Shown here: positions 1,773 through 36,565 of the stretch, one piece after another | Layout: each line of letters starts with the position of its first letter | Position numbering within the stretch: the stretch's first letter is position 1 | Origin: Selaginella tamariscina | Lineage: Eukaryota; Streptophyta; Lycopodiopsida; Selaginellales; Selaginellaceae | Length of the DNA: 64,000 nucleotides | Reading direction: 5' to 3' | Assembly (NCBI GenBank): GCA_003024785.1 | Contig: PUQB01000404.1 | Span: 124,001 to 188,000 of the forward strand | Notes under the pieces: model-generated | What the model was told of the DNA's origin: nothing | Database searches by the model: none | What the model saw: the letters and a program-made list of their open reading frames with translations, nothing else | Made by a program: the position numbers and the translations under genes

Positions 1773-4700
1773 GACAATATGTTTAATACTGGAGATAAAG
1801 TATGTCTTCTTCGGAACAACGAGATAGTTGGCACTGGAACTGTGGAAGTTCGAGATAATAATGCATCATGTCACAATATTGCCCAAGGATCTTGTGTGTA
1901 CGTATGGGTGAACACCATTTACAAGCATGTTGAGGTTCTGGGAATGGAATTTGAGGAGGGTTCTCCTGTATTGTGGAATTTGGATGAAGTCAAGGCTGAC
2001 ACAGAATATGCAGAGTCACAAACAAATAGTAGCACGAGTTTACCAGATGATGGCTTGCCTGCTGTGATGGATGAGGTGATTCTCTTTCTTCGTGAGATTG
2101 AAGTCGGAAGAGGCATCATCACAGCTATAAATCCAATGGAAGCAGTGTTAGAAGAGAAACTAGGGTCCGACTTCGTGGGTGTAGTTGTGACAGAGGTTTC
2201 ACCTAATGGCACATTGTATCTGGATCCCTCGTGAGGTGGCGAACATCTGAATTAAGACGGCAAGATGGTTCAACATATTCTGGGTTGGATTTCAATAATA
2301 ACAACCCGGAAGAACAACTCATATTTGAAGAGGTTCCTTGCATTGGTCTATTGTAAGAAAAAGGCGATTCATGGGTTGTAGATCTTCCCCTGCAAGTTTC
2401 AGCAAGAGGGTAAAGATGGATCCTACATCTTCCGAAAGTGTTACAGCATTTCCACGATTGACTGTTGCAAGAAGAAGTGTTGTCAGATGGCAGACCGGAA
2501 TGAAATTACCCAATGTAGACATGTCTTTCGTATGCTCACCCAAAAGCAAAGGCATGAGTTTGTATATGCTGCACTAACTGGGTGTATTGATGGAATGGCC
2601 TCGGACACAGGTTATCAGAGTACATCCATGGTATTTAATAAGGTGGCCATCTGCTTCAAAGCTTGGTACAGTATATATGGGATCCCAAAGACCACGTTCT
2701 ACCGTCGGAGGGATGAGTGGCTAGATGGAGCGCGAACCTCAGTTCATGGGAACACTCGCTTGGTCAAAACCCGCTCTCACATCATGGCAGCCATAGAGAT
2801 ACTCAAGGCTTTTGTGGAAGCAAATGCAGACAGGATGCCTCACAAATGCCGAACCACAAATGCAGGGGTCAGGGAAAATCTCAAGGTTTTGCCTTCAATC
2901 TACACTCAATTGAAGCTGTGTGAACATGTGAACAAGTGCCTCAGTTTGATGGGGCTCCAAGCAATCTGCACTGGTACCTTCAACAACATATGGAATACTC
3001 ATTTTAAGGATGTGGAGATTGCAAAACACTCTAGCTTTTCCAAGTGTGACACTTGTACATCATTGAAGGCTGCAGAGGCTTGTGCAAAAACCTTGGTGGA
3101 GATCACTACCATTCAAAAGAAGATGGAGGCCCACATGATTGCACAACAAACTTGCCGGTCTCAGTACTATGCACACCGCATGCTTTCTGTGTCACCCATC
3201 AAGTACCTGTGCTTGATCCATGACAAGATGGATCATTCAAAGACCAGCATTCCAAAGCTCTTTGCAACACCAAAGTGCCTTGGAAATGTCATGAAACTTC
3301 CGATTTCATTGACAGTGTGCTAACACATGGACACGGTTGTGAGTCATATGGACACTTTTCACTTCCACATTGGTCTAGCGACTCCAATTTCACTATTGGG
3401 TCGTTAGCCATGTGTTTCAGAAACCTTGAAGCCCACTCACAGACAAGTCCTATCAGTGATCTCAAAGTGAAGAAACAACACCTTCAACCTTTACATAATG
3501 CTCTCATGAACACATCTGCACTTGAGGCTACTTGGGAATATGAGAGGCATTGTCAACAGCCTGCACAGAAAATAGATGGCCCTGTTGAGAGTTCTGGTTC
3601 AGTGGAGGGATCTAGCTCAAATAGTGTACATGTGTCCTCAACATCAAATAAGCTTCCTCGTCATTTGCTTTTACAGATGGATAATTGTGCAGGCGAGAAC
3701 AAAAATAGGTAAATCATTTTACTTAAGGGTTTCTCAAGCTCATACTTACTTTTATTTTCTAGATATGTGCTAGCATACTTGTCAATGCTTGTTGCCAAAG
3801 GTGTGTTTGAAACAATCACGCTCAGTTTCCTTATGGTTGGTCACACTCATGAAGATATTGATGCGTTCTTCAGCAAGGTCTCCAACTCTACAAAAAGGAC
3901 AAGTGCACTTACCTTACCGCATATGATGAATCTTTTTGAAAATTGCATCTCCAAAAAAAGTTGTGCTTTGCTTGTGACTGAGGTGCCAGACTTCAAAAAA
4001 TTTCTCAAGGAGTATATAAAAGAAGGGAGTGATTCTTTAGTTGGTCACTTGTGCCGCTACAATTCTTTTTCTCCATACGAGATGGTATACCTATTATGCA
4101 GTACAAGTTACGGCCATCAGAGCAGGAGTGGTTACCGAAAGAGGGCTTAATGCTCTTCAAAAGTGGAGAGGATGGAAAGCCACTTCTCCCAGAAGGACAA
4201 CCAGACCCTATTCCATTGAGTGCCCAGCTCAAGGAACAAGAGGTTATTATTGATGGCATCAAAAAATATGTGGCATGGTTCAAAAATCGATGCCAAAGAA
4301 TTCTGATAAGGCAACTGGTTACTCAGAACTATATAAGCATGTGGTCACTATTGGGAGACTGTTGTTCGAGAGTTGGAAGGGCCTACTGTCACAAGTACAG
4401 AATTGCAACACCCTTTCTGGCCTAAAACAAGGTGGCGAGAGGAGATTGAAATGACATCACTGAGCATAGACGACATAGAAGCCAGTAGTGATGTGGAAGT
4501 GCAAACCCCACACTTTGTTGGACAAAGGAACCAAAAACCTAAAGCATACTTTGATTGTGCAAGGATCTTCAAAAACTAATGATGGTTCTCATTACTCCAG
4601 ATGCGTCATATAATCAGCCTATTTGGATGGGTCAAATTATCGACACACCTGAAGTAATCACAAAAAATAGTATTGTTAAGGTTGCATGGTTCAAACCACA

Positions 4701-4870
4701 AAAAAGGCGACACGAGAAGGAGAGCGAAAGATATAATGGATGCCTAGAAAACATGGTTTCCCAATCAAAAAGACCCAGCATGTTTTATAAATGTTAAATC
4801 CATTCGATATAGGTGGATGTCAAGAAGCGTTGATAAAGTCACGATTAACAAAACTGCAAGGGAATGTATG
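1773..4870 (+). pseudogene. DUF7869-type transposon gene, frameshifted
   Basis: This is probably the coding part of a decayed DNA transposon. In order: an N-terminal 150-residue domain (1767-2231) resembling the DUF8039-like domain of plant transposon proteins; a Cys-rich segment (CCKKKCCQ, near 2470) leading into 2487-3323; a frameshift near 3300; 3275-3708 ending in the signature MDNCAGENKNR; a 54-base GT-AG intron (3709-3762) that joins it to YVLAYLSMLVAKG and then MVGHTHEDIDAFF (about 3834-3875). HDKMDH (about 3220), MDNCAGEN and GHTHEDID are the candidate acidic catalytic sites. Further frameshifts near 4085, 4330-4370 and 4560 break the C-terminal part, which ends in a segment like the small BAH-like tail of such proteins. 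I recognise the DUF7869 signature; the DDE assignment is inference. No terminal inverted repeats were found. Confidence 0.7.
3709..3762 (+). other. Short intron in the DUF7869-type gene
   Basis: The donor AG|GTAAAT and acceptor TTTTCTAG flank 54 bases. Removing them joins GENKNR to YVLAYL in one frame across the most conserved part of the protein, so the intron is well supported. Confidence 0.75.
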
Positions 4871-5370: not shown

Positions 5371-5389
5371 TAGTTACAACTTGCATACA

Positions 5390-5665
5390 TCTCAAAATTT
5401 TGCTTCATTATTAATAATATCTTGCACAACAAAAGTGTAGTATCGCTTTGCCTTTACATATTAGTCCTTGGGATCACCATTAGGTGGATATTGGATGTGT
5501 ATGTGAGTGCAGTCCATTGCACCAACACATTCAAAAACCCCTCGTAACACTCGGAACCATGCATGGAGGAAAGTGCACAGGAGTAGGCGCTGTATCCAAG
5601 GTCTCCAATGCTATTGATGTCGTGAAACTGGAAGCAAAGACTGAGGAATAATTAAAATCCTTGCA
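5390..5665 (-). pseudogene. PIF/Harbinger transposase fragment, copy A
   Basis: Read on the minus strand, the region matches the block around the first catalytic Asp of Harbinger (DDE_Tnp_4) transposases, with an MDCTHIHIQYPP-type motif followed by an NGDPKD-type segment. Copy A has one base fewer than copy B in the stretch before VGAMDC and several in-frame stops. The second Asp and the Glu were not found. It is a fragment of a cut-and-paste transposase and cannot be active. Confidence 0.7.
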
Positions 5666-6884
5666 GGCGTCGACTTGAGGCAAAGATGAAGAACTTCATC
5701 CAGGTCCTTGATTGATGCTAGCTATGTGTTCAAAAAGGGATGAGCTTTTTCTCAAGATAATACTAAGTTAATCCTGCTCTTGCATCTGTTGGCTGTGTGT
5801 GAGAGAGGCCTATGCTTTCCTTAATCGCTCCATGTGTTTGTGTCACGTTCTACATGGTGCTTTTATGTTTTCTAGTTTCCGTTTCTTGGCTATGTCTCTG
5901 GTTGTGAATCTGGTGTGTTGCCCTAAACCCAACCCAAGGTAAACCGACAATTTGCTTTTGTTTCACAAAGCCTCAACGTCATACGGTTGTGTAACCGTTA
6001 TTCTTCCATGATAGAGCCCTCTCTCGGAGGTATGCCAACAGAGGATGAGTTTCCTTCAAGGTTTGTTCCCTTGCTGGCTAGCCATGGGAAGGTGTCGGGG
6101 AGGGGCTTGTGAAATTGGATGAAAGACTCACAGAAAGGCTAGGAGCCATGTAGGTCATTGTGGTTTCAACTAGTGGATAAGGGAAAACGAGGATGTCTTG
6201 AAGGTGGATCTAGAGACATAAGAGCAATTGGAATGCATTTGTTCAGGAGAAATTAATATTAACCAATTCAGCAAAATGAAATGTAGGAATTATTGATTGC
6301 AAACAGTGATTTACTGTCAAATTTCTACAGAATAGGTTATATAAATTATATGTTAATGAATCTAATTAATAATTATAACGTAAAACCGCTAGCATATGCC
6401 ATTCAATTAAGTTAGTCATAATTAATCATAATAAATGTTAATTTTGAGTTGCTGGTCAAAATGACTGCGCCTTTGCCTGGACCACTGGATCCGGTGGACC
6501 CACTGGATCCGTTGTGAGTTGTTGCGTTGGTTTCCATCTTAAACCTACTTAAGAAGTTAAAGGTAGGGTTAGAGTATTCCAAAGTCAAATGTGTTTTTGA
6601 ATTTAGCTGAAGAACTGCTCTTTCTTATTTCGTATCGCACTCAGGTGGCCCACTTTGTTGTGCAGTTTGGTTCATGCATTACAAAGCTCATGGAGTTGGT
6701 GTGATGGAGTGATAGTGGTGGATGAAGCCCAGGAGTTGCTACACTATATGAGAGGCCATTTCAGCACTCCTTAGGAGGGGCAGTTGTTGTTGAATCCTTT
6801 TATCTTAGCTCTATTTGACTGTTGAATAGCCTCTTGCTATGAAACTTTGTGCTAACGAAATGTCAATGAAATGATGCAGCTGTG

Positions 6885-7075
6885 AGTGTCAGGCAGCATT
6901 GAAGAAAAGGTACCTGCAGAAGTCTTGGGCGTGCTTGGGACGCCAACAATGTACATGGTGAAGTACACCCTAAAAAGGCATTTTCGGTGCAACCATTATA
7001 CGATGAAAGAAGCACTTCATTTACAACATATGTATGGACTAGATTATTAAGTAAACAAGGGTTTAAAGGGCCATA
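6885..7075 (+). other. Conserved unrecognised stretch, copy A
   Basis: The equivalent stretch in copy B is open for about 66 codons on the plus strand and starts within an acceptor-like TGCAG context. In copy A it carries short deletions. The peptide is basic and contains GVLGTPTMYMVKYTLKRHF. I do not recognise the family; it could be an exon of the gene that lost its other parts when the repeat formed. Confidence 0.3.
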
Positions 7076-7749
7076 CATGATATTTATGCTACGACGAAAG
7101 CAACAGACAACAATGTGGCAACGATGAATTACAAAGTAATGAGTTTTATAAAGATGTTGAGGTGAGTTTTGAAGGTTAAAACATTATCACTCATGGAATA
7201 TGTTTATCCTTGTGCAAGTTACACCTTCGTCAGATGTTTAAGCCGGCAAGAGTTAGGTGGTAATTACAATCTATATATTGTCCAACCGACTTTGACTATT
7301 TTCATTTTTACGATATTGTTCGATGACATAATTTTAAACAACATAAAGACTAAGGCTAAGGTTGACTGACGAATTTAACTTCAGTTTTTTAGGTTTTCAT
7401 TTTTTATTTTTACAATGAGTTAAAATTTATTAATAATAAAAACATCCCTGTTTCTCACGATGTGCATGCGTGTATGTTTGTATTCGCACCTGTAAAGTCC
7501 ATTCCATGCATGCACGTAAGAAATCGGAATTGATGCTGTTTATGAATATTCTTGGTATATACGTTGAGAAGTATCAGATTCTCGAATATACTTTTTCAAG
7601 CACGGAACAATGGACATATGTACAAATATAGAACATTTGAAGAGGCGCGCTGGCAACTAGCAATGTGCGAGATATGAAGATCTATAATTAAATATTGTTT
7701 TATTGTTAATTTATTATTTATTATTAATTAAATATTGTCATCTTTATTA

Positions 7750-9120
7750 AGGAAGTTCATCAAGCCGTGTCCATCGAGAACGAGGTGTAAGAAAATGAAC
7801 TGCCATAGCTAGACATCCACAGCGGAACTTCACCAAGTGTATCTTCGCGAGAGAACTTTCACAAGGATCCATAACGTATACTTGCGAGCAGTCACTAAGC
7901 TTTGTTTAAATATATAAAGGTTTCTCTAACCTGTGCTTTCCTGTGTCTGTTAACCAGACTCTACCAGCCAGTACGGGATATAGAGACAGTTTTAGCCGAA
8001 GGCTTTTGGAGACCTGTTCGCTCCGTGCGTAGCATCTCGGAATAACAAAAAATTGATGTGTACTCAGGCTTTGTGTACATAAGATCGATATTTGTAAGTT
8101 GAGTACAAGGAGTTTGCTTGTTCTCTCCGTACAGCGGTTTGATTTCATGGAAAGATTTTGAATTACATTGTACTACGAAATGTTTGAATGTGATGACATT
8201 GTGCTAACGATAGCAACACTAGAAAGTACGTGTGTGTGTGTATGGATTAAGGTGTGATATAATGAGAATAATGTGAGCACATGTTGCATGTATGCAGTTC
8301 ACTACGGCAAGATCGTGCCCGGCATTTTAAAGTATACATATATAAACTGGTTTGACTTTGGGAAGGAGTTTCCGCCGGGCAAATAAATTAAGAAATTTAA
8401 AGATTCTATTCATGGTTTCCAATGTTTGTATATGTCTACAAGCAAAACAGCGTTTGTATATGTCACATGTACGTTAGGGAGTTCTATTTTAAAATATTAA
8501 ATATTATATATGAATGTTTAATGTTAGCATGATTTTTTTTTATGGATTTCTCTGGTATTCGTCACTCGCTCTTTCTTTGATGTAAAGATACTACCATGGA
8601 TCGATGTACTTTCTTAAAGATTCATCAAGTTCTCAATTTACTCATATGGGTCTAAACGATTTCTTTTATATATTAAAATTTATGTAACTATTAACGATAT
8701 TCAAAAGAAATATTAATATATTTAATTTATAACTATTTGATACATGAATGTATCACGAAGGCTAATTGTCCTTATGTGTTTGTGAACCTGTCAACAAGTG
8801 TCTTACACGCACATGCCCAGTAAATATATTTAACAAGGCGTCTGGTGTTGAATCATATGATATTTAAATTGTTCAATGACAACATAATAATACGCCAGTA
8901 CAGAGGCAGAGGTTATCTCACTTTTGCTTGCGTTATTTCTGGACAGATTTGTTTTTTCTTTTTTTAAATAGACAGAGGACGGTAAACCTTAAATAAATAA
9001 TCTTAAGACAAATCCTTGAGAATTTGCATTGATCATTTAATGCAGTTAATGATAAATTTGTGGAAGTAAGCCGTTCGAAATCTGAAGAGTGAGCAAAGAA
9101 TAATTTAGTGGTGTAGTTGT
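7750..9120. other. Spacer without a recognisable gene
   Basis: 7750-8160 is less AT-rich than its surroundings and looks like old transposon DNA, but no domain can be read. The rest is AT-rich and holds no convincing reading frame on either strand. Confidence 0.5.
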
Positions 9121-11433: not shown

Positions 11434-14163
11434 TCCTTTATTCTTAATAGTGCACGGTAGACGCTGTAAGTCCCTGCAACCTCCATGTTGATTATCGCAG
11501 CCGCCTGAATCACCGCTGAAACAGAAGGAGAACTTGCGAAGACGACCATGAAACCACTCGCTGCCAAGTGCATTCCACTGAACTACAAGGCCTCCTCAAA
11601 CTTCACTGGATCTAACTGCACAATGTCCTTGTTGATGCTAGCACCTCCATATGCAAGCTCATTGGGCAAGTCGAGGATGATGAGGTTGAAGCCGTATTCA
11701 CCTACCACTTCCTGGAACACCGTTTGTGACTCAGCCGTATGTAGTTTGTCAACCTATTGTCGGAGCTTGGTGTACACCTTTATCTGGGAGCACCCAGCTC
11801 AAAGAAAGACCTACTCATCTCCTCCATATCGCACACAGCCAGGTTGTAGGATCCACAGGATGTAGCCAGTGTCGGGATGAAGGTTCTCAGGTCATCCTTG
11901 ATGTCCAATCCAGCTACAAGTGGTTGCACCTCATTGAGTGTAAAGTTGATTGCCGACGGAGGTGCTGTAGAAGAGCTTGGTCCCGCTCCCGATCCCTTTG
12001 CAGGTGTAGATGTCTTCCGCACCGTCTTCTTCATCTTGCTCTTCTTGATAGCCTCTACTTCATCCGGCTCTCAAACAATCGCTGGAAGATCATTGGCATG
12101 CACGTCGAACAGTGAGCTCTCCCAAGCTGGTGGCTACTGTGATGGACAGTCGAGCCAAAATGGAACATGCTCTCGTTCGAATGGTGTTAGAGCTCCTCTG
12201 CTCTTCGACCACACGTAAGGCTCGCTTGTATGACCTGTCCACAGCTTCATCGTCTGAGACGGTGCCATTTTCTTCGCTATTATGAACCTGTAACACAAAG
12301 TTAGTCAGGAGCAATGTTGGAATGAAAGCTTACCTCCATATTATCCGACGCGTAGACTCCTCACGCTCCAGAAACTCATTCGGCTCCATCGAATAAGTGA
12401 ACCATATGCAGTCATGGAAGGGCTGAAAGACCAAGCACTTGCTCTGAGTTCGCATCTCGTCAAACCAGCTCATGAAGTCGACATCCGTCCCAACTTCTTC
12501 ACCATCCTCTCGCAGTCCCTTAAGGATCTGAATGGCTTCCTCGCGCACAACCTTCCAATATAAGTCCAAGGTGAACCACTTGATCCACTCTTTGTCCTGC
12601 ATGCCTGGTAGCCCAAGTGTCTATTGTTCTGCCTTGGATTCGAGACGAGTGAGCTTGTTCAAGTATCGGAGTCGCAGCATGTTTGAAATCTTTGCCTTTG
12701 ACATCGCGTACAACTTCTCAATGCCCATTCAGCGACACTGCTTATGAGAGATGTTCGTCACCTTTTGGAACCACTCCTCCCCCAACTCTGGGTCTATGAT
12801 AGAGAGGAACTTGTGCATACGCTTGTCATGCTTCTTGTACACTAACTGCTTCAGGTTCAATTCAAGTTGTGGATTGCCTTTAATTGCTAAATATTATAAG
12901 GTTTAATCTATCTTTTTAAATGTTGGGTAAACTATCTCAAAAAAGTTTATGAAACCTATCAATCAAACCGAAGGTTACCTTGAAAAGAATCTTTGCACAG
13001 ATCAGGTTTGGAAGAGGATGCCAAGCCGTCTTTCCTGTTGCACTCTCATTCCACTTCCGCACTTCAAGACGATCAACCTCTATGAGTGACTCGAGGATTT
13101 TCTGAGTTCCTTCAGTACTAGTGCAGACCGCCTTTACAACGAGGAGAATATGTAGTAGCGTTGTTTCCACATATGTTGCTGAAGATCTGTTCATTGAAAC
13201 TGTAAGTCTAGACCTTTAATGAAAAGAAAGAAATACTCACATGTTTATCGATTGGAACATCGAAACCAGTTGAAGATTGTCGAGGTTCTATGTGGAAATG
13301 AAACTCGATCAAATGCAAATAGCCCATTGCTGGTTGTCCTCTGCATCCTCCCGGTAGAGCTTCTGCAAAGCCTGTAGCCTATGATTCCCGTCCCAACAGC
13401 TGAACTTCCGGTTTGAGAGCCTCGAAGCTCACTGTTTGTACTCCAGCTGAGTAAGAGCTTGCTCGAAAGACCGGTGCTGCTCGTACTGAACCGTGTCTTT
13501 TGACAGCTCCGATAGCTCCTTAGTAGTGAGTGGATCTCCGATGAACAGAATGAACAAGGCCGTGTTGCGTAGATAACTAGCCTTCTTCAACGATGACACC
13601 AGCTTGTCCAAGTCCCCTAGGTTCACTCGTCGAACCACCTCGTTCGAATGCATTCTACAGATTGGCACATCAGGAGGATCACCAAGTCTCTTGATAGTAA
13701 TTTTGTCAAGCAGGTTCGCCGAGCTCTCCAAATGCAGGCTGGCCGGTATGCTGTATAACTCCTTCAACTCCTTATCGCTCTTCGCCTTCTTGCCTTTTGG
13801 ATCAGCTTTCCCACGGCCTCTCTTTTTGCTGACTGCCTCCTCCAAGTCGTCCTCACTAGCTTCAATTGCCTCTGTCATCTACACTTGCTCGTTCAAGACT
13901 GTAACCTTATCGGATGAAGGTGGCAACTGCGACGAGCTCTCCGGGAAATCTGTGATGGTTGATGGAGGTTGCTCCTGCTCAACTGGTACTACTTGAGACT
14001 GAGTCACTGGAGGATCCTCCTTTGCTACATTAGATGGTTCTCCTCTCTTTCCTCGCTTGTGCTTCGATATCCTCTTCTCTTCCCGTGGCTCTTCATCAGG
14101 CGCAATCTCTAGTAGACGTTTTAAAGCTCTCACCATTTTGTAGACTCTGGAAAGCAAACACAC
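11434..14163 (-). pseudogene. Multi-exon gene with ParB/Srx-like and methyltransferase-like regions, nonsense-riddled
   Basis: On the minus strand one frame can be followed through predicted exons. 14163-13230: a Lys/Glu/Pro-rich N-terminus with KKRGRGKADPKGKKAK, then a ParB/sulfiredoxin-like region (ICRMHSNEVVRR, LGDLDKLVSSLKK, and after one stop FSCWDGNHRLQALQKLY). An intron follows (donor GTGAGT near 13240, acceptor near 13200). Next come 13200-12937 and 12870-12333, then an intron (GTAAGC to TTACAG, about 12290-12332), then 12289-11434, which ends with YGFNLIILDLPNE and GFMVVFASSP. That order (acidic strand end, then a helix and a GF-hydrophobic strand) resembles a Rossmann methyltransferase around motif IV. 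About ten in-frame stops interrupt it, nearly all TAG or TGA. Domain names rest on my reading of motifs and need a profile search. Confidence 0.55.
13879..13881 (-). other. In-frame TAG between two otherwise continuous open stretches
   Basis: The 94-codon stretch upstream (14163-13882) and the 149-codon stretch downstream (13878-13429) are in the same frame and separated only by this TAG. A CAG-to-TAG change would explain it. Confidence 0.8.
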
Positions 14164-14206
14164 AAGTTAATTGATTCATAGACAAAAGGAAAAATAAAAA
14201 TCAAAG

Positions 14207-15000
14207 ATGACTAACCTTGTGGCTACCGACTCAAGCTAGATGGTGCCAACCCTCTCAGTCGGTCGACTGAGACAGGTTGGTGCCGACCCTCTCAGTCAGT
14301 ACAGCAAAGTAGATGAGCAAAACCTGCCGACTAAGACAGGTTGGTGCCGACCCTCTCAGACGGCACTGAAGAGATAATGTAAGAAGTATGCCAACTGAGC
14401 TAGGATGGTGCCATCCCTCTCAGACGGCACAAATGGGAAGACCCTTTAACTCTGGAAAAAAAAAAAAAACATTGTGATATGGATACTTGAGTTGCAAATC
14501 AAAAAATAAGGAAATTGAACAAACCTTGTGGCTGCCGACTGAGAAGGAAGGTGCCGTCTCTCTCAGTCAGCACAAATGGGAAGACCCTTTAACTCTGGAA
14601 AGAAAGAAACACATTGTGATATGAATATTTGAGCAAATCATAAAATAAAGAAATTGAATAGACCTTGTGGCTGCCGATTGAACCAGGATGGTGCCATCTC
14701 TCTCACACGGCACAAATTGGAAGACCCTTTAACTCTGAAAAATAAAAAACACATTGTGGTATGGATATTTGAGTTACAAATCATAAAATAAAGAAATCGA
14801 ATAGACCTTGTGTCTGCCGACTGAGCCAGGATGGTGCCGTCTCTCTCACACGGCACAAATGGGAAGACCCTTCAACTCTGGCATAAAAAAAACACATTGT
14901 GATATGGATATTTGAGCCACAAATTAAAGAAAAAGAAATTACACAAACCTTGTGGCCGTTGACTGAGTAGAATAGTGCCGACAATCTAAATCGGCACAGA
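14207..15000 (-). repeat. Tandem array of a ~143-bp exon-plus-intron unit
   Basis: About six units begin near 14217, 14325, 14528, 14668, 14812 and 14955 (plus-strand 'aaccttgtggctgccgactg' or variants). On the minus strand each reads as a pyrimidine tract ending in CCAG or similar, a ~71-base segment starting AGTTAAAGGGTCTTCCCATT and ending ACAAG, then GTTTGTG/GTCTATT/GTTAGTC. This looks like one small exon with its flanking intron, duplicated in tandem between the gene's 5' end and its large exon. The conserved peptide includes LCRVRETAPSWLSRQ. The last units are more diverged. Confidence 0.75.
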
Positions 15001-15090
15001 AATCTCAATTGATTTACTTGGGCGCTGCACGAATCGACTCGAAATGGATGGCGCTGCTCTCTCATGCCCCTTGGAGGAGATTTCAGATAT
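14955..15090 (-). other. Likely first exon of the ParB-like gene
   Basis: On the minus strand an ATG at 15065 opens a short frame (REQRHPFRVDSCSAQ) that reaches the ACAAG|GTTTGTG donor shared by the tandem exon units. The downstream gene is on the same strand, so this is the best candidate for its 5' exon; no independent evidence. Confidence 0.35.
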
Positions 15091-15185
15091 CAGATCTACG
15101 ATAGAAAAAACCCTAGCCGCAATGAAAACAGTAAACCCTATTTACCAAAAAACCCTAACCGCAATGAAAAAATGAACCCTACGGA
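15090..15185 (-). promoter_or_regulatory. Cluster of telo-box-like motifs
   Basis: Four copies of ACCCTA-type words occur in 80 bases (AAAACCCTAGCC, TAAACCCTATTT, AAAACCCTAACC, GAACCCTACGG). The telo-box (AAACCCTA) is a known plant promoter element, mostly in housekeeping and ribosomal protein genes. The cluster lies just upstream of the 5' end of the minus-strand gene. It could also be a scrap of telomere-like repeat. Confidence 0.5.
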
Positions 15186-15391
15186 ATAAATGTGACATTA
15201 ATATTTAGGGTTAATATTAAAATATGTGAATAATTGGTAAAGGTGAAGATATTTCAAATCATAAAAGGTAATAATTAAATTAAATTGGTGATACTAGAGG
15301 ACAGCATTAAGAACAATATGAGCTGGGCAACGTAGAATTAATTATATACAAAAGTGTATTCACGTTTATTATCAACGATTATAATTTTTTT

Positions 15392-18300
15392 TTGCGAACG
15401 AGAATGTGTTTTAATCTTTTGCTTTCCTTTCCTAAGCCACCGAGCTTTCTCCTTGCATTGTCATGGCTAGAGTTACTTTATGAAGGCATTGACAAAGATT
15501 TCCCAATCAATGAAGATGGAAATGCTTTTGTGTTTGAACATGATCTTCACTTTGCTTTCAACATTCCTTGTTGGTTCAGTATACATGTGGTTTAATTGAT
15601 GTCAGTTTCTGCGAGTTCTGGAGAAGATGTGGAGTTGTTACCAGAAGGCAATGCATCAAACCAGTTTATCTTTTACACATTGTGCCCAGCAAAGGGCCCG
15701 TTGTTTAGGTTGCGAACAAAGGAGCGTGAAGAATCCATGCTGGTGTGTCTTCTAAGAGCAGACAAATGTATGATAGGGAAGGATCTCATTGGTTCGTCTG
15801 AAGTTAAACGAGTCTTTGAACTACCGGAGATATACAATGGAAATGTCATTTACGAACTTCCTCCAAAGAAAGAAAGCACAAAGAAGTACTTGGGGATGAA
15901 TCGCAAGGATGGTTGCTACCATTGGACACACCCGAGCACAACACACTGGCATGTTTCGGTGCGAGTCAGTCGAAGTTCATGTGTCAGACATCTCAAATGC
16001 ATCAATCCTACCTGCCCCTACTTGGCTTTTGAGAAGAAAGCAAATGAATGTCACTTCAAGGGTGCTGTGGAGAAGGCAAAGACAACTGAGTCAGGCAAAG
16101 TAAAAGGCATGAAATGTAAGCATTGTGGAGAGGAGCCATTGCTAGTGCACACTTGTCTGGCTTATGTGTACTACATTCTGCTAGACGACATTTCTTTACA
16201 AGGTTGTTCATTCACAGAGGTGTTCATTAGCATCCAGTCAGCCCCTCAGTGTCAGCTTCAAACGTTCAGCGTGCCAGATCTAGTGTCAGCAACGTGGTAA
16301 AGAGCAGTCTGCGAACCAATCAACAAGTGATTAAGTTTCAAGCTGCACGTGAGCTCATCTTTGAAGAACTTTTCAAGGAAGGAGGAGAAGTCTCGTACAC
16401 TAGTTTACTCTCAAAACTTAAACCTCTTACAAACCATCGAAGGTATTTTTCTTTAGATCTCTACACACTGACGTGACCTTTTCTTTAGGACTCGGGACTG
16501 GATTACACAATCAAGACAGAAGAAGACACACTTTAGAGAGGGTTACGAGGGTCTTCTGGAGCTGAAGACAAAGTTGCCAATACCTTTCATTCACGTCATA
16601 CATGTTCCAGGGATGGAACTGCATGGTGTGAGGAGCAGCCTCTGATCTTCAAAATGACATTTGAGGGACCGGGTTCATGAGTTGACTACATCAGAAGGTG
16701 TCAAAGTGGAGGAGACCTTTATGATCAATGGGTTGTTCTGGACCACACGCACCGTATACCAGACTAGGGCGACAATTGGAATACACCTTTATGACCCATT
16801 ATAAGTTGTAGAACTCTTCATAACACTTTGTAATCTTTGTTATCTAATGCTCTCTTACAGTGTCAGATCCATGGTGACTATAGCTTACGCAGATATGTGC
16901 CGCGAAGATAATGTTGTAGTGCTGAAGTTCTTGAACACAATGCTAGAAGTTTGTAAGAAACAGGGTTTAGAGAATGTCAACTTTGCTGGTTTCATATCGG
17001 ATGAGGCTGGAGCAATATGGATAGCCTTGCGCCAAGTATTCAACAACGGAGAAAAGATGAAAGGGAGGAAAAGAAGCTGTCTGTTTCACTTTATGCAATC
17101 CGTGCGTTAGGTGACAAAGAAATGAATCGCAGAAGAACATCACGAAGAACACATGAAGCTTGCCCGTGCCTGGCCTAAGCACTGAATGAACAATCTAAGA
17201 AAGAACAACTAGCAATTCTCAAGTCTTTTTGGGAAGGACAAGCATCAAACATTCGTGCTTTGAAGACATGGTTGTTTTGGTGGATCATGCATGAGGACCA
17301 CATCTCCATGGCGGAACTGGGAGACATAACAGAAGAAGGACTCACAAGCGTTCCAACTACAAACAATGCTGAAGTGATTCACGCGAGAGCAAGAAGAGCA
17401 AGATTGGCCAAAAGAGTACCACTGCTGAAGGCAACAATGTTAGACCTCACCGATGCAGTTATGCCGAGTGCGAAGGTGAAAGCGGCAATAGAAGGGAGGT
17501 ATACAGGGTCAGGTCCTTCGAAGGAAACTCTGTTGAAACGAGTGCAACGCAAACTCTCTGAGGGAAAAAGTGTATCTCCATCAACAATTATCAATTTGGT
17601 GGAAGATGAGGAACACTTGACCAGCCCGAAGTTCACAAGTACCACTAACGTTCGAGTGCAAATGTTAGGAGAACAGTCACAAGAACAGAACAGTCTGATG
17701 CTCGACGTTCACACAGACATGATGTAGAGTACACAGAGCGGGTGGTCCAAAACAACAGGAGAAAGAGGTTAAAGTTCGAAGAGGTTTTGGAGAGAGAGAT
17801 TGCACAAACAGAGTGGGCCATCAGACGAATTGGAGCATCCAGTAAGGTTAAGTGTTTGGGGATGAATCAGGAAGGAACTGCTCTGTGTGGAAAACCAATC
17901 GGTTATCCAAGCAGAGTGCCAGCACCAGGATTCTATGGAAAATGAATGTACAGTGATGCCTTGGGGAATGAGGAGTATGTACAACAGATGATGTGGTTCT
18001 GCCCAAAAGATTCAGGGTGTTTCACACGGCTAAACGGCAAAATTCTTCAGTCAAGAATTCTAACACCACCAACGGTTTGGCCTGTGCTCAAGGAAATGAA
18101 GCTGACAAGTGAGGAGGTCAGAGAACTACAGGATGCAGGCTTTGTTCTGATGGTTTATAGGGGACGGTAGGAAGAGTAGATGAGGGTCAGAAGGACAAAA
18201 CACCATCGCCACCACGTGGAGCTGGATCTACAACAATTCCACCTTTCGAAGGACGCATGGTCCGGACTCCAACAAAAATGTCTAAGGAACAAGAGAAGAA

Positions 18301-18547
18301 TTTCCACAAGGCCAAGACATTTTTAGGTCGAGTGCGAAATGTTGAAGTGATAGTTAGAGGACGGAAGGAGGCTTCCGTTGTGTCGGCAGGAAATGACTCT
18401 GCAAAGGTGACTATTAGTACTTATCCTACATGCAGTTGTTCTACCTTTCAAAAGAGCAAAAATTGGAGCCCATGTGTACACATGTACTTCGTCTACAGCC
18501 GTGTGCTTGGCTTGAACCCGGACGTCACTTATTTTCTACAAAAGTGA
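15392..18547 (+). pseudogene. MULE-type transposase gene with SWIM finger, frameshifted
   Basis: Plus-strand pieces in several frames form one decayed Mutator-like transposase. 15596-16300: an N-terminal region with paired CxxC sequences (INPTCPYLAF, MKCKHCGEEP), a likely zinc-binding DNA-contact domain. 16320-16445: FQAARELIFEELFKEGG. 16847-17110: the transposase core region, with GFISDEAGAIWIALRQVF followed by SCLFHFMQSV, where MULEs have the second Asp and the C/H motif. 17260-17727: a helical linker. 17742-18170: a second CxxC-like region. 18257-18547: a SWIM finger (TCSCSTFQKSKNWSPCVHMY, pattern CxC...CxH). Frame changes and stops occur between most blocks; some gaps may be introns (for example 16443-16490). 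No terminal inverted repeats identified. Confidence 0.65.
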
Positions 18548-18599
18548 TCACTCAGTAAGATGGAGGTCCACCGTTTACTAGTGAATTGCAGCAGAGTTC

Positions 18600-21500
18600 T
18601 TGACCCACCGGTGCTACAGAGATAAATGGTTTACATAAAAATGCTTTGTTTGAATAGTAATTTATTGAACTTTTTTATAAAGTATTAAAAAAAATTCTAA
18701 AAATTTAAATGATTTATTTGTTGATCGGCAAATATTAAGCCAGTCGGCATATTAAAAAAACTTATATCAAAAAATATTCTTAAGAATATTCTAGAATATG
18801 CTAGAATACCTAGAATATCCGTGAATATACTAGAATAATACGAAGCCTCCTGAGCCGGAGCCTCCTTTTCGCCGAGACCCATATAACTGCAGTTTGATGA
18901 ACATATTGATCAATATTAAACAATAAATAGAACGCAGTTTGATGAACATAAAACAATCAATATAAATTTCTGTAGAAGTTGCGCGACCCAATCTACCTGT
19001 AGAATTCACCTACTTGCTGAAGTATATATGCATGGTTGATTGTTTATGTCTTGACCATTCCATAATCCATACACATGATGCTATATGTGTATACTAGCCT
19101 TATGATTTATAGGTGGCTATAGTTACTTAATCTATATACATTAGATTTAACATTAAACATTAGCATATTTTTAAAATATATTTTAATAATATATTCCTAT
19201 AGTATATTCGTGTCATGTGAAATCTATGCTTATACATAAATTAAAAAAACTTAATGCATTTCAGATAAATACAAATCTTCTTATAGTTTTTTCTTAGATT
19301 TAATTTGTTAATTAATTATGGTTTAATTAATTATAGCTAATACAAAAAGAGAGTTGTATAGCCCTGCGATTTTTCCGATGAATGAAACAGATACATTTGT
19401 ATAAATGCTAAGAATCCCATATTTTATAACACCTTAGCTCTCTAGAGTTGTTGTTAGTGTAAAATAATTAAATTAATTTAATATAATATATTGTATTACA
19501 TATCAGTAGTGTTACTTTTACAAATTTCCATATTATTATTATAATTCAAGCCATAGTTTCACCTCTAAAACAGAAAACCTGAAAATATATTTTTAAAAAT
19601 TATTATTAAAAAAATATAATCTAAGATTTATTTAAAATATATACCCTTTAGTAATAAGTGGTCTCCTAAAGTGATTTGCTAATTTCCTTTTAAAATAAAA
19701 AATAATACTTTAATATTTATTTTAGAATTGATAAAATGAGAAAAAAGATTTTAATAACATAAATAGATTAATAGTGTAAATAAATGCTCAATGTTGTGTG
19801 ATGATTTTCCTTTGCATAAGCCAAAACCTTATCTATCAATCTTCTTAATCATATTCGAACTACGTACAATATCTTTATTTTATGATCATCTTCTTTTTTT
19901 ATTTTCTTTAATTAATTATTTTTTTTCCCCCATTAATAAGAACTTACTATTTCATTCTTTGACTAAAAAGTAAACTCGTAATATTTTACAATTTCATCAC
20001 AAACCGAGTTGAATTAAATGCACAAAATTTTAAATGATTTTTACTTGATTTTTAGTATATAATGATGCAATAAATATAACTAGTTATATTAATTATTTAT
20101 TATAAGTACTTTAATTAATTATGTAACTTTTATATCAATATAACATGGAATTTAAGGATTTGTTTTTTGAAACAAAGTTTTGAATGATTTTTACTATATG
20201 ATGATGTAATACAAATGTACAAAGAATAACTTATTTATTATAAATAGTTTAGCTAATCATATAACTTTTTTTACCATGTCATTGGTTGTTTCGTAATTAT
20301 ATATAAAAAAATTATTTATAACACATTGTTTCTCGTTACATTGCATATTTAATAATAAAATTATATGATTTAAATAGTTTTTCTCATTGAAAAACTCTTC
20401 CACACTTGGTGCTTTTTGTTCTATAATAATTCCTTGTAAAGAATATATTGAAAAAACAATTCCTTAGAATAGTTCATTTCTATAATATAAAAAATAAAAG
20501 AAACACAACAGTAATTATGTATAATAATATAATAATATTTATTCAATTTAATTTAATATATTTATATATACTTTAACCTTTTTACTCAATTTAGTTAGTA
20601 TTCATTCAATTTAGTTTATTTATATATTTATCCAACCCACGGGTATGGTGCATATTAATCAACACATATAGTGTTCAAAGAAGTCTCACTTACTATAATA
20701 ATAACCTAGCTGCAAACAACTTATAAATGTAGTGCTTATATACGAAGTATATTTTATATAATTCTTAAAATAACTTAAACTATATACACTTTGACCTTAT
20801 ATAACACTAGTGTGAATGTCGTTATTTTTACGTGTCTATATTGATTTGTGTGTAAATGTATGTGTGTGTGACGGGTGTGTGTCTGTATATATATACTTGT
20901 ATGTATGTGTCTATGAATATTTTACTGTGTGCTACATCAATATAATTTTATTTTAGTTAAATAGTTCACAGTAAAGAGAAAAGATTACTCTAGCCAAGTT
21001 CATTGAGATTCTTAATTTAATTTACAAGTGACTGAATAAAACTATCTTTATAGAATAAATAATAATTTTGATTTTTTTATATAGTTTTTTGGACTTTCAA
21101 TTTGATATATAATAAGCCAGTGATTTTTTTCCGTTCCCATCTATTAGGCGTCCTTGTGTTAAACAAGTTACATAGACAACCGTACACATACATATCGTAC
21201 ACGCACGTCACATATATAACAATCCAAGAGACATTATATCACACAGAGGAGCATATGCGTAAGGGTGTAAAAAGGGCGAATTAAGGGTCCTTGAATGAAT
21301 TAAGCAGGATCTGTATTGCTTTGGAAGGAGTCTGTTAAAGAATGCGTTAATGATCACAGTAGAATTTTAAACATATGCGTGGTGTAAGTTGAAATATAAT
21401 ACATAAATAATATAATAAATTACATCGTATGTGTATGTATTATGAATACGCGCACACACACACACACACACACACGTGGAATACCATTTTGTGAAGTCTC

Positions 21501-28789: not shown

Positions 28790-30300
28790 TGTGTAGATGG
28801 TGAGGATCTGATGGTCCTGGATCCGTGTGAACTGGGCCATCTAAGGTATGACCAAATGTACTCAACGAGTCTCGAACGACAAACCGTTTCATTCGAACCA
28901 CGTGAACTATCTCAACCTTATGAGATCCCACCAACTGTACTTGATATACATGAGGACCAACCTTTCGGAGTACTCGGTAGGGACCCACTTATGTAATAAA
29001 CCAGTTGCAAGCCCAGGTGCAGTCAGCTTAGGAAAACGTACCAGGACTAAATCACCGCAGCAAAATCTGGTGGAATTTGATGTCGTGCATTGTAAGAAGA
29101 TTGCTGCCACATTTGAGCTCGACCAAGATGTTCAGCAGACTCTGCACGCAGAAGAGGCAAAACAGCATCCAAATGTCGAGCCCACATCTTTGCATCCTCG
29201 GCACGTGGCAGATTCGATGATAACCCCAATTCACTAGGCAACTTAGGATCATATCCATACAATGCCTTGAATGGAGAGATACCAATCGAACTCTGAATGC
29301 CTGTTACATAAGCAAATCTCAAACATCGCAAATACCAATCCCAGTCTGTGTGATTGAAGTTCACATACTTCGAGATCATACCCTTGAAGGTCCGATTCAA
29401 TCGCTCCACCAAAATCAGTTTGTGGATGATACGGAGAGGCAAATGAATGTTTTACCCTAACCTCTCACACAACACTCGGATTACCTCTGCAATGAAAGCG
29501 GGGCCATTGTCTGATAACATCCGCTCTGGACAAGAATGCTGCAAAACCACATTATCGAACAGAAACAAAGCTGTTGACATGGCAGTTGCATCTGGAAGAG
29601 CACCAACCTCCACCCATCGAGTTAAATAATCGGATACAACAATGATGTACTGGTTACCGTGAGAAGAACGTGGAAAAGGTCCCATTAGATCCACTGCAAT
29701 TAACTCAAAAGGGCGAGAGACATTGATGGATTCCAACATCCCCATGGCCCGAGTCGTAGAGGAATTCCGAGTTTGACAAGTGGGACAACTTTGAATATAC
29801 CTGATCACATCACCACGCATGCTGGGCCAATAAAATGATCGGCGCAGCTTCTCCAACACCCGTTGGTGACCAAGATGACCTCCAACAATAGGTGAATCAT
29901 GATATGCTCGAAGAAGGTGTGGAACATATGTAGAGGGTACATCCAAACGCCATCTGTCCTCTGGATTTGTCCCAATAAATACAATAAACCATCCTGAAGT
30001 CGAAACTGAGCATGATATTGTCGAAACCGAGGTTCGAAAGACGGATTTGCAAACGCATCGCGTAATTGCCTCGTCCATGGTTCATGTTTTTGAGCATCCT
30101 GCCACTGTTCCAAGGATGGTAAGTCGGCATCGAATACCTGAGGGACTTGTATCAAACCGAACGCTGCAACTACTGCATGAGCAGGCAAAGTGGAATCGAA
30201 GAGGGGTGCTCGAGAAAGTGCATCCGCATCCACCATTGTTCGCCCAGGCCTGTGCACCACCTTAAAGTTATATACCTGGAGACGTAATGCCATCTGCTAC
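28790..30300 (-). pseudogene. Integrase region of retrotransposon 1
   Basis: From high to low coordinate: the RNase H-integrase link (VHRPGRTMVDADALSRAP); an HHCC zinc finger (HDSPIVGGHLGHQR ... SCPTCQT); the first Asp in IAVDLMGPFPRSSHGNQYI; the second in MLSDNGPAFIAEV; then a frameshift near 29445, after which the Glu is seen in VERLNRTFKGMISKYV. The C-terminal part holds GDLVLVRFPK and GPYRVLRKVGPHVYQVQL and finishes near 28790 without a chromodomain. At least three frame changes (near 29870, 29445 and 29000) rule out activity. Confidence 0.85.
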
Positions 30301-31600
30301 GCGACCCACTAAATTCTTCCGTTTTAATAAGGAAGTGACAGCAGCATGATCACACTCCAAAAGTGTTTCACTCCCATGTAAGTAGGCATGAAGTCGTTCA
30401 AAACCCCAAACAGCAGCAAGGCATTCTTTTTCAGTAGTGGAATAATTCCTCTCAGCCGGCGTGAGTACTCGACTAATGTAAGCCACCGGGTGTCGAATTG
30501 AAGAATCCACAGCATCAGTTTGCATCAATACACCACCAATACCAACATCTGAGGCATCTACTCGTAAAATGAACGGACGAGTAAAATCTGGATATTGAAG
30601 CAATGGTGGAGTTGTCAGGAACTCTTTTAACTGGTCAAATGCCTGCTGACACCTGCGAGTCCACCTGAAAGATACCTGTGGATGAACTAACTCCCGAAGA
30701 GGGGCAGTTCGATCAGTGAGATGATCGATGAATCGACCCAAGTACTGCACCTTGCCCAAGAAATGCTGGACTTCCTGTATGTACGGGGACGAGGGAACTC
30801 TCGAACAGCTCGTAACTTCATTAGATCCACCTGTAAACCCTCTCGAGATATACGGTAACCCAAGTAAGTGGTGTCGGTCGAACCAAACACACACTTTTCA
30901 AGTTTCAACTTCAGGCCAACTTCTCGAAATCGATCAAGAACGCGCGTACATCACGAATGTGATCCTCCCAAGAACCAGACCCATGAATGAGCACATCGTC
31001 GATAAAATCGGCAGTGATATCAGGCATATCGAAAAGAAGCTCATCCATCATGCGTTGAAAGGTGGCAGGAGCTGAAGTCAATCCAAAAGGCATGACCAAA
31101 AACTCGTAAAGACCAAATGGTGTCCGGAAGGCTGTTTTGGAATATCCTCCTCAGCCATAGGAACCTGCCAATATCTGATGCCAAATCCAACTTAGTAAAC
31201 CACCGACTCTGACCCAAACGATCTAATAGATCGGCAGAGTTCGGAAGTGGATAGACATCTTTGATGGTAACATCGTTGAGAGGTCGGTAATCACACAAAA
31301 TCGTAGAGATCCATCAGGCTTGGAAACCAAATGAGGTTCACATGCCCATGGACTCCGTGATGGACGACACACCCGCTTACCGATCATATCTGTAACAGCT
31401 GTTCGCATGGCTGATAACTCTTTTGGTGACCTGTGTCGAACCGGGACTTTGAAAGGCTTTGCATTGCCTGTGGGTATACAGTGTCGAGTCTTCACACGTG
31501 CACCTTGGGACAGATCAAATTTGAACAAACTTGCATACTGCTGCTTAAGTTGTTCGATGCATTGTGCTCGATACTCCGGTGACGGATCCGACATTTGAAC
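30268..31600 (-). pseudogene. Reverse transcriptase and RNase H region of retrotransposon 1
   Basis: RT blocks: DYRPLNDVTIKDVYPLP (31290-31240), a fingers-palm segment ending WFTKLDLAS, MPFGLTSAPATFQRMMDELL (31095-31036), and the catalytic box read as FIDD in ADFIDDVLIH, followed by the connection segment CVFGSTDTTYLGYRIS. RNase H: FILRVDASDVGIGGVLMQ and NYSTTEKECLAAVWGFE. Frameshifts lie near 31200, 31130, 30910 and 30780, and shortly before the link to integrase. Confidence 0.87.
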
Positions 31601-31704
31601 CTGTTGAGATGAACACCATCCCAAGACTGAATCAAAGGAGCTGTATGTGTGATACAAACAGCAACAAGCTTGTCTGGACGTAAAGGAACAGACTTTCGAC
31701 TGCT

Positions 31705-32061
31705 TCAACCAGTCACATCCAGAATAATGTCAAAGACCTGGGAAGGGACAACCCTAAGAGACCCAGAGGGAAACTTATGATTGTCACCCAAAACCAGCGT
31801 AGTTGAAGTGGTGTACTGTGATACTGCACGAGACTGCCCATTACCATATAAAATGTGCAAGACCTTATCTGCACGTCTTAAGGGTAACGAGCACCGATGC
31901 ACTAGAGAAGAAGTTATGGAAGACATACTGGATCCTGTATCCACAAGCACTGTGACTGAAAGATCATTCATTCGTGCAGAAAATGTGAAAACTGGATGAT
32001 CCGGTGGAACTTGCAAACCCTGATATGCATAGCGGAAAAAGCATGGAGGTGAAGTCTCCAT
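31705..32061 (-). pseudogene. Retropepsin-type protease region of retrotransposon 1
   Basis: The active-site motif VLVDTGSSMSSI is intact and followed by the expected hydrophobic strands up to FDIIL. It is separated from RT by a frame change at about 31705. Confidence 0.8.
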
Positions 32062-33172
32062 CGCACGGGATCCCTCCGTCGCCCGTACGATTACTGGTTT
32101 TCTGCAACAGATCCATCTGCAAGAGAGGCTTCATCATCTGGAAGCTCATCATCAGACATAATGGCCGCCACAGCACACCATCCGGAACATATGGTCGCCA
32201 GCCTGGATGTGGTGGACGCCAATCAGGATACACATCGCATGCTCGCCAAGTATGTCCAGGCGCCCAAAGGCCCAACAATGAACTTGATTGGTATCTTCGC
32301 ATGAAAAGAAAATCTTTATATGTTATTACCTAAATGGATATAATTGTATACAAAACAAAATGGGTGCATGCAAAACATGAGATATCGATGGAGGTGGACC
32401 ACGGGGTGGGCCCGAGGTCGACCACGAAAGGCTTGCCGTGCGGGCACATACGCAGCAGCATCAACCTCCATTGGATCAGCACGCTGAACAAGAGGAGCAG
32501 GTAACCCAAGGGAACACGGCCCTCACCAGGCATCAACTCAAAACGTTGAGCTAGTGCAAAAGCTTCCTCCAATGTGGTAGGACGAAGAGCCCGAACAAAT
32601 CGAACAAGTTCGGGTCGCATAGTTGGCCATAACATACCGAGCTTAATAGGCTCAGGCATGTTAAGATATGCACGCCGAACTAAATCCCCGAACCTAATAC
32701 TAAACCGCATAACAGACTCACCAGGATGTTGTCGTATCGCATGCAGTTGTTGGAAAGCATCATCTGAATCCTCAACTTTGCCAAACGTACGTTTGAGACA
32801 TTCCGTTAACCGATTACTATTGGCTTGAATCTCCACAGCCAATCCATTATACCACTTGAGCGCAGGGCCTTCCAAACATGTAGGGAATTCTCTGAGAGCA
32901 CGGGCCTCATCCCAACCATGGTAATGAACAATGACTTGGAAATGATCAAACCAGTGGTATACATCATCTCCCGAATCACCACAAAAAGATCGGGGTGAAC
33001 CCTCAGATTTGTGGCCTGTGAAGAGATGGAGGAGTACTAGAAGCAGATCCCCGGCATGAGGCTCAGACAGGGAAGAGGAGGACGGACCCTCAACGAAGCG
33101 CTCCAACAACTTAGTTTGTGCATCAATAGCAGTAGCAATAATGCTAAAAGCTGTCTCCATGTTTATTGTCAT
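31964..33172 (-). pseudogene. Gag region of retrotransposon 1
   Basis: The 280-codon frame from 33172 contains the retrotransposon Gag domain (YHWFDHFQVIVHYHGWDEA, LEGPALKWYNGL, QHPGESVMRFSIRFGDLVRRAY). It shifts frame near 32500. Further down, PGHTWRAC (about 32240-32265) looks like the end of a CCHC zinc knuckle whose first two cysteines are lost or out of frame. Confidence 0.82.
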
Positions 33173-33225
33173 GGAAACAAGAAAAAGAAAATGCGGAAGA
33201 AAGGAATACCCAACTTCTCCACTAA

Positions 33226-33430
33226 TGAAAGAGCAGATATATTAAATGAAATGTCTGATATATTAGTTTACAAAAACCCTGCTTATATACAGGAGGCCTC
33301 CTGCCACATGGCACACATGCGACACGTGGCACTGACACATGGGGCCAGATCACCACCCATGTGTCACTACGCATGTGTGTATATACACATGCGTATATAC
33401 GGTACGTTACCTAATATACAATATCTTACA
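33226..33430 (-). repeat. 5' LTR of retrotransposon 1
   Basis: 205 bases; equal in length to the partner at 28566-28770, with which it shares both ends. Confidence 0.92.
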
Positions 33431-33955
33431 ATATAAATTATGCTAGAATTTAAAACAACACTTAATTAGTAATATAATCAACCAATCAGAGAGAAGCTTA
33501 CTTATAATATAATTATTCCTGGATCAACCAATCAAAGAGAAGCTTAGTTATTATATAATAATTCCTGATCAACCAATCAAAGAGAAGCTTAAATAAAAAT
33601 GTTTAATTAATTTGTTACAATACTAATCTAATTATCTGAGCTGTGTACCAAATGTTCTGTCCTTTCAGAAATGGAATCTCTAGTCACAATCAATCGCACA
33701 ACAAAAAATAGTAAATTCAACGCAAAAAACACATAAAAATAGTAAATTACATTAGACAATTTCTCTTTGCCAAATGTTGGCATATCCTGCAACAGGCACA
33801 TGGATGTGCCTCAGTCACACTAACAGAGACAAACAGATTTTATGCACTTAAGTCTGTTTAGCGAATGTGTCGGTGTGTTCGACTGTAGTTTCTTTCTGTA
33901 ATCACCAATCCTCCCAGATTATAGATAGATAAGATTTCCCCAATTTCTCCATCTA

Positions 33956-34645
33956 ATGAGAATTCAGTGTGACAGTTGCCAAGCAGCTGAAGCTGCAGTT
34001 GTATGTTGTGCAGATGAAGCTGCCCTTTGTAAGGAGTGTGATGTTCAAGTACACGATGCAAACGAGCTCGCGAGTAAGCACCAGAGAGTGCCTCTCTCCC
34101 GGCCTCCTACAGACACTCTATGCGATATATGTCAAGTAAGTATAGAATTCACCAGGAAACTCAAACACTACCACACATACGCACGCACAAACATGTATGT
34201 ATGCATGAGTAAGCATATTTCTTTGCACCTTGTGATAATTTACATATTTTTACAAGCTTATTTTGTTCTGTGTAGAGGACCGAGCACTTATTTGCCACGG
34301 TTTGGACATGTCCATTCATCGATCTAACCCCTCGACCCCGAACCACCGCAGATTTCTTGTAACCGGCGTTACTGCCTCATTACACACGCTGAGCACCGTC
34401 TCAAGCCAGTCAACCAGCCAGTCAAAACCGGTCAACCGGTTCGAAAACTTCACCACCTGAAGAGCGTACCGACGGTAGATCGCACTGCAGCTACGGTAGT
34501 ATTCAGTAACACATCTACTGCAGATACCGCCAAAAAGATAAGTATTTTCGAGTTTCTAACACAAGCTGTGCCGGTTGGAAATGTGATGAGCTTCTCAACA
34601 CGTCGGACAGTAACTTCAATGCTTTCGGTCTGGATCCATCTCCTA

Positions 34646-34685
<40 letters not shown>

Positions 34686-35874: not shown

Positions 35875-35929
<55 letters not shown>

Positions 35930-36352: not shown

Positions 36353-36394
<42 letters not shown>

Positions 36395-36565
36395 AAGGTG
36401 ATTATATTATTCTAAGCATAATGTGTGTATTTTCATAATATATATTTACAGATAACAAGGTGATTAATAACAATTAACTAGCTTCTATTGAATTACGAAA
36501 TGTGCAAAATTTGAAATAGCAAACTAACTAATGAAGTAGATAATCAGATATGTTGAATATAATTA
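35115..36565. other. Spacer between convergent B-box and reticulon genes, copy 1
   Basis: Collinear with 61822-63319 in copy 2. It includes (CT)n(TA)n at 35879-35929 and (TA)n at 36352-36391. A stretch at 35950-36090 is conserved between copies (GMQTYRHNMKDIQF in copy 2) but no gene is recognised. Confidence 0.6.

Follow-up and report, generated by a model that had tools for sequence, protein, structure and literature searches.

The window, a stretch of 64,000 nucleotides of Selaginella tamariscina DNA, contains a decayed, right-truncated copy of an ~8.3-kb transposon (11450..18880, minus strand in the orientation of the ParB/methyltransferase gene, delimited by blastn to the undecayed copy C336). 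The element carries two genes in divergent orientation. One encodes a Mutator-like transposase; the other, on the minus strand of the window, encodes a predicted protein of 992 amino acids in which a ParB-like segment precedes a relative of the N6_N4 DNA methyltransferases. The element, its copies, its two genes and the methyltransferase homology are shown; there is moderate support for ParB homology, for purifying selection and for one much older locus in which the two halves follow each other in the same order. The anatomy of element and gene, as described below, is held with good confidence.

The shared sequence begins and ends together ~8.3 kb apart among the copies. The terminal inverted repeats are imperfect (local score 61, against a maximum of 44 in 200 base shuffles), and the exact right end of the element is uncertain by a base or two. 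Mutator-like elements generate target duplications of 8-11 bp. Flank duplications of 8, 8, 9 and 10 bases, scored as the longest flank match by script and all within that range, were present in four of the six copies with both ends recognised and absent from the other two; the remaining three of the nine copies, in which both ends were not recognised, were left out of this test. The transposon ends that the earlier note had suggested looking for are thus present in the copies as terminal repeats and target duplications. In blastn against C336 the window copy aligns at 18880-18725 (90.6% identity), 18633-15091 (95.1%), 14939-14278 (78.3%) and 14262-11450 (91.2%), so that it is 91-95% identical to the full element over its two genes and 78.3% identical over the tandem array between them. 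The left terminal sequence is retained at 18855..18880 (minus strand) as an exact 26-base match with a chance expectation of 0.00, and the right end was not found in the window copy with up to three mismatches allowed. The similarity to C336 ends inside exon 4 at 11450, and everything beyond is missing from the window copy: the remainder of exon 4, exons 5 and 6 with the SAM-binding half, and the right end of the element.

The plant's own genome was searched in an assembly of 1391 contigs that total 300,702,823 bases. A protein search found at least 151 matches to the ParB-like exon segment there (150 of 1475 first-look candidates scored), and one identical stretch of 196 amino acids occurs in 15 of the 20 fetched loci in which this segment is open. 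Nine element copies were compared with one another, and all 36 pairs are 99.4-99.9% identical, measured in the best blastn segment (2.18-2.71 kb) of the ParB/methyltransferase gene only. The region of this gene, with the array in front, is found in nine of the nine copies compared. Judged by these identities, the element family multiplied recently and the window copy, at 91.2% and 95.1% in its two main pieces, is older than the near-identical copies. The earlier note had suspected a multi-copy or mobile family with better copies elsewhere, and the number of matches together with undecayed copies such as C336 confirms it. Chance or a sequencing artefact as the source of the window gene is ruled out by the family of copies, and a phage remnant or an organelle gene by the introns, the transposon ends and the copy number. 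In the C475 stretch (L017 and L032) a second, inverted element copy of 91-95% identity adjoins the first.

In C336 the second gene has six predicted exons, which together encode 992 residues and are separated by GT-AG introns of 56, 54, 46, 46 and 46 nt; introns this short are in keeping with Selaginella. A model without one optional piece of 15 residues is open at 977 amino acids in two of the nine copies, C336 and C1137; in the seven others it is broken or a splice site was missed by the script. Four exons are present in the window, all on the minus strand. Exon 1 (13241..14136, placed by comparison with C336) holds the start codon, a basic N-terminal tail and the ParB-like segment. Exon 2 (12979..13186) is followed by exon 3 (12334..12878), of unassigned fold and lying between the two domains, and the truncated exon 4 (11450..12287, by blastn and alignment to C336) holds the motif-IV half of the methyltransferase. 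The minus strand at 14136-11450 contains the peptides quoted in the earlier note, with in-frame stops between them, and the intron-bearing gene joining ParB-like and methyltransferase-like regions that was proposed there is recovered in the undecayed paralogues. That gene is real, but it is only one half of an element that reaches 18880 and is cut at the right. The four window exons are 92.5-93.9% identical to those of the undecayed C336 with one gap column; frameshifts in exons 1-2 were considered and ruled out, since splice phase explains the reading. Ten stop changes separate the window copy from C336, nine of them C>T or G>A, as are 97 of the 171 base differences, as expected of methylated DNA. 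The same pair differs by 80 synonymous changes in 555 sites and 81 nonsynonymous changes in 1929 sites; the resulting pN/pS of 0.33, a single-pair value to which both ancestral selection and decay contribute, suggests purifying selection at the protein level in the ancestors.

Fusions with ParB_N before N6_N4_Mtase are common in phages. The fusion of Wolbachia phage WO (L036, 408 amino acids) matches ParB_N with an E-value of 1.6e-5 (25.3 bits, just under the cutoff of 26.3) and N6_N4_Mtase with 1.9e-26, and 311 of the 621 phage records matching it cover at least 80% of the protein, in agreement with the earlier statement that ParB-like and DNA methylase domains occur together in phages. For comparison a set of 14 phage/plasmid fusion proteins was used, from which 12 viral-contig loci and one further phage locus were left out. 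The plant protein resembles these fusions in its domain order, in having motif IV before motif I, and in the order of a helix followed by DGxHR in the ParB part. It differs from them in length (992 amino acids predicted, against 389-505 in the 14 compared), in an insert of ~58 residues in the ParB-like part and ~420 residues between the parts, and in its basic N-terminal tail, its five introns, the replacement of DPPY by DLPN and its carriage by a plant transposon.

The ParB-like segment (13288..13689, minus strand) comprises a predicted helix at about DLDxLVSSLKKA, the insert of ~58 residues and then WDGNHRLQALQKL. DGNHR is present in the 20 loci read and in ten divergent relatives. Taken literally, the profile search proposed in the earlier note goes against it, as the window pieces 13429-13300 and 11434-11760 match no ParB/Srx or methyltransferase profile. 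The window pieces alone also gave no relevant match in Pfam, PHROGs or PDB and no meaningful phage match by tblastn, and a further phage search with them returned 8 phage records, all with E-values of 2 or worse. The verdict therefore rests on the paralogues. No piece searched matched ParB_N (Pfam, E up to 10). The searches of phages, of viral contigs with part of exon 3 (5 stretches) and of genome contigs with the ParB-like segment (46 stretches) returned no close relative from prokaryotes or viruses.

Divergent relatives were collected with a pattern for another spelling of DGNHRL, which occurs at 13 places in the genome (3 for the backwards control). Eleven of these places were read, of which ten are relatives sharing WDGNHRLQWLxII or a decayed form of it and one, L071, is unrelated. 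Their similarity to the 992-residue protein by tblastn is weak (best E-value 0.002, and 0.068 for L080, in a 12-sequence set). A first ParB profile of ten sequences gave an E-value of 0.0077. A longer profile of the same ten, C336 and nine relatives (L071 dropped, and L075 left out as a near-repeat of L074), gave an hhalign E-value of 6.5e-4 with a score of 27.6, against a maximum of 17.2 in 200 column shuffles, at an hhalign probability of 28% (3.5% global); after realignment the core covers 27 columns around DGNHR, and the choice of the relatives by the DGNHR pattern favours that motif. Globally the longer profile scored 16.1 (maximum of 8.0 in 200 shuffles), the helix and DGNHR pairing with DGHLR. 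An AlphaFold2 model of the exon-1 segment made without relatives has a strand-helix order compatible with ParB at low confidence (pLDDT 38.7).

From these comparisons the exon-1 segment is probably homologous to ParB. The opposing reading, a chance likeness in which the methyltransferase is joined to an N-terminal domain of other descent that happens to contain DGNHR, is distinctly less probable, though it would agree with the lack of relevant Pfam, PHROGs and PDB matches, with the low hhalign probability obtained from relatives chosen by motif, with the low confidence of the structure model, and with the 2.5 bits that C336 alone scores on the ParB parts of these 14 fusions, a value within the shuffles (best of 1000, 6.6 bits). 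It is opposed by the profile, which exceeds 200 of 200 column shuffles both locally and globally, by the global alignment, which pairs helix and DGxHR in ParB order, and by the succession of ParB_N and N6_N4_Mtase known from phages. The catalytic cysteine of sulfiredoxin lies in a GCHR motif. Sulfiredoxin is ruled out by the lack of GCHR, DGNHR being present instead; the ParB/Srx order read in the earlier note has support on its ParB side in a modest profile match, but not for a sulfiredoxin active site.

The methyltransferase half is better resolved in the undecayed copies, the intact paralogues whose search had been suggested. The last-exon reading frame of C336 matches N6_N4_Mtase (PF01555) in Pfam with an E-value of 1.5e-9 (38.6 bits, cutoff 26.7) and, by phmmer against PDB, M.MboIIA with 0.00051; the window copy, lacking the last exon, matches no N6_N4_Mtase in Pfam. 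Against the profile of the 14 phage/plasmid fusions the methyltransferase part of C336 scores 23.8 bits (best of 1000 shuffles, 3.3). Global alignment of the single C336 sequence to the fusion profile has an E-value of 6.6e-7, carried mainly by the motif-I half, and places DLPN at DPPY, the motif-IV half being placed and not significant alone. In the global profile alignment and in MAFFT, FNLIILDLPNELVYGG falls on the DPPY region of the relatives. In the SAM-binding motif I, WDIGSGTGSSLLAA aligns to DPFxGSGSTLIA, with DIGSGTG kept.

The catalytic motif IV of N6_N4_Mtase is (D/N/S)PP(Y/F/W). It reads DPPY in 14 of the 14 phage/plasmid fusions, and DLPN, which departs from this motif, at the aligned place of the plant family (11661..11672 in the window, minus strand, by alignment with C336; the same residues are found in the window reading frame 11583-11753). 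The earlier reading of the C-terminus as the motif IV half was therefore rightly placed by alignment, but the residues are DLPN and not DPPY. Descent from the beta-class (N6_N4) methyltransferases is firmly indicated by these matches. Because DPPY is replaced by DLPN, family descent only and no enzyme activity is claimed; with DIGSGTG kept and DLPN at the place of DPPY, SAM binding by the protein is likely and ordinary amino-methylation unlikely.

Both halves also appear to be kept at a much older locus, L080, of which 5 kb were read. It has DGNHRL at 2029, YDLVVANFSTGE at 3838, assigned by eye to motif IV and reading ANFS there, and GWGYNDDVK followed by GTATCA at 4049, where the C336 counterpart is GWGYRDKIK followed by the intron start GTAAGC. 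At 4516 it has GDYILDLFMGMG, which matches N6_N4_Mtase with 24.9 bits and an E-value of 2.2e-5, under the cutoff of 26.7. The locus is full of stops and its pieces lie in two frames; we infer that they form one gene with both halves in order. If L080 is one gene, the fusion predates the split of the element family and L080 lineages. No such downstream motif was seen at L079 in the stretch read.

The transposase-like gene (15450..18544, plus strand, the start at ~15450 being approximate) is divergent to the ParB/methyltransferase gene and is represented in the window by decayed pieces in the reading frames 15596-16297, 17179-17724 and 18161-18544 (plus strand). A SWIM zinc finger lies near 18428-18502 on the plus strand (E-value 0.0023, 17.8 bits, under the cutoff of 19.6). 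In other copies the gene reads, by eye, VVLDHTH, MSDEAGA, CLFHF and TTNNAEVIH, which we take to be Mutator-type DDE and CxxH features. No Pfam transposase family was matched by the element proteins at E-values up to 10, SWIM alone being found, under its cutoff. Naming the element Mutator-like is thus a reading without profile assignment. An element of another DDE superfamily with 8-bp duplications would suit the two of four duplications that are best read as 8 bases and the lack of a Pfam transposase match, and it is made improbable by the SWIM-like finger, by two copies whose duplications measure 9 and 10 bases, and by the TTNNxE and CxxH motifs seen by eye, which are Mutator features.

The two genes are separated by a tandem array (14227..14967, no strand assigned). 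Its units, which measure 143 and 37-64 bases, contain imperfect dyads and have splice-like CAG and AAG|GT at their borders. The dyad form TGCCG(A/T)CTGA-N(10-30)-TCAGTCGGCA occurs 7 times per 20-kb stretch in the nine copies (9 times in C475, where the second copy is present); these are raw counts without shuffle comparison, of repeat units that are not independent. Exon-like units bounded by splice-like signals number 5 in each of the nine stretches, and 9-5-9 hairpins in the array number 2, equal to the shuffle maximum. The units of the C336 element at ~3640-4850 and of the window at 14227-14967 look like repeated short leader exons. The array may consist of repeated leader exons, may be a binding array, or both.

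Several described systems are comparable in part. Passages of PMC5735166 report that the VANC proteins of Arabidopsis VANDAL elements bring about loss of DNA methylation and that their targets often form tandem repeats. The present element resembles VANDAL and Mutator-like elements in having a second gene beside a SWIM-type transposase and tandem repeats in non-coding parts, and differs from VANDAL elements with VANC in that its second gene is ParB/methyltransferase-like. Extra open reading frames of Mutator-like elements named in passages of PMC6446971 include PMD, FAR1, SET, an ovarian-tumour gene, DUF and unknown ORFs, and the words 'methyl' and 'ParB' are absent from the main text of that paper. 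Cytosine methyltransferases shown to be active are described in passages of PMC5890265 from retrotransposons of dinoflagellates and charophytes. The element is similar to these in carrying a DNA-methyltransferase-type gene inside a eukaryotic transposon; those are C5 enzymes, whereas here an amino-methyltransferase relative is found in a DNA transposon. Bdelloids are described in passages of PMC8885841 as having a bacterial-type N4-methylcytosine system. As there, a gene of the bacterial amino-methylation type is present in a eukaryote. We know of no ParB-like part or transposon carriage for the bdelloid enzyme. A ParB-methyltransferase gene in a plant transposon was not found in the titles and abstract starts of the open-access literature (subscription papers and preprints being outside this search).

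It is proposed that a Mutator-like plant DNA transposon would have recruited a phage- or bacterial-type fusion of ParB-like and N6_N4 methyltransferase parts beside its transposase, and that the fusion protein would keep SAM binding through DIGSGTG and lose the usual methylation with the replacement of DPPY. This descent with loss of ordinary methylation, taken apart from any regulatory role, is slightly favoured. The protein may further act as a regulator that binds DNA sequence-specifically: it would read the dyad repeats of the array between the genes and would maintain expression of the element or shield it from silencing, in the way VANC proteins act on the VANDAL elements of Arabidopsis; this mechanism is suggested because of the VANC parallel, in which the targets often are tandem repeats, and is put forward tentatively. 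The full combination is rather doubtful, namely that the recruited fusion without its methylating motif would bind SAM, read dyads and serve in anti-silencing or in a partition-like role at the repeat array of the element's own control region, and that the gene would be old enough in this plant for lineages retaining both halves and an intron position to have diverged.

Two other functions of the second gene are considered improbable, and about equally so. If it were a working DNA N-methyltransferase despite its changed motif IV, the protein could mark the element's own DNA for protection or chromatin change in the manner of the retrotransposon DNMTs, given its N6_N4_Mtase homology, the kept SAM-binding motif and the active transposon-borne DNMTs described in passages of PMC5890265; this is opposed by DLPN at the place where all 14 phage/plasmid relatives have DPPY, and by ANFS at the putative motif IV of L080, read by eye in a decayed locus. 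As a passenger, the gene would have been captured and would hitch-hike without a role for the element. Mutator-like elements have a tendency to pick up pieces of host genes, according to passages of PMC6446971, and the frame is open in only two of nine copies, seven being broken or unspliced by the script; yet the gene region with its array persists in all nine copies compared, both halves seem to be retained at one older locus, and the pN/pS of the window copy against C336 is 0.33.

Under the proposed reading, the gene carried by this high-copy and apparently recent plant element is of the type known from prokaryotic viruses, and one part of it would probably read DNA and another probably bind SAM. 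To our knowledge few transposons carry their own tools against silencing. The family would make testable the takeover of bacterial DNA-modification genes by DNA transposons, the protection of an element from host methylation by a methyltransferase relative without the catalytic motif, and the working of a ParB-like domain outside prokaryotes.

Elsewhere in the window, plus-strand frames at 2382-4422, of which 3713-4147 matches DUF7869 (E-value 3.1e-27), are apparently another mobile-element-type gene, separate from the ParB/methyltransferase element. Two repeat pairs of 84-96% identity are found at 5387-7750 and 57185-59633 and at 33477-36755 and 60125-63493; the second pair has two frames beginning like a B-box zinc-finger gene, the profile match having been checked on the first. 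Minus-strand frames at 29050-33241 and 46084-47409 resemble, by eye, a decayed Ty3-type retrotransposon. A nucleotide-diphospho-sugar transferase domain at 50121-50975 (E-value 2.7e-47) is likely an exon of a host gene.
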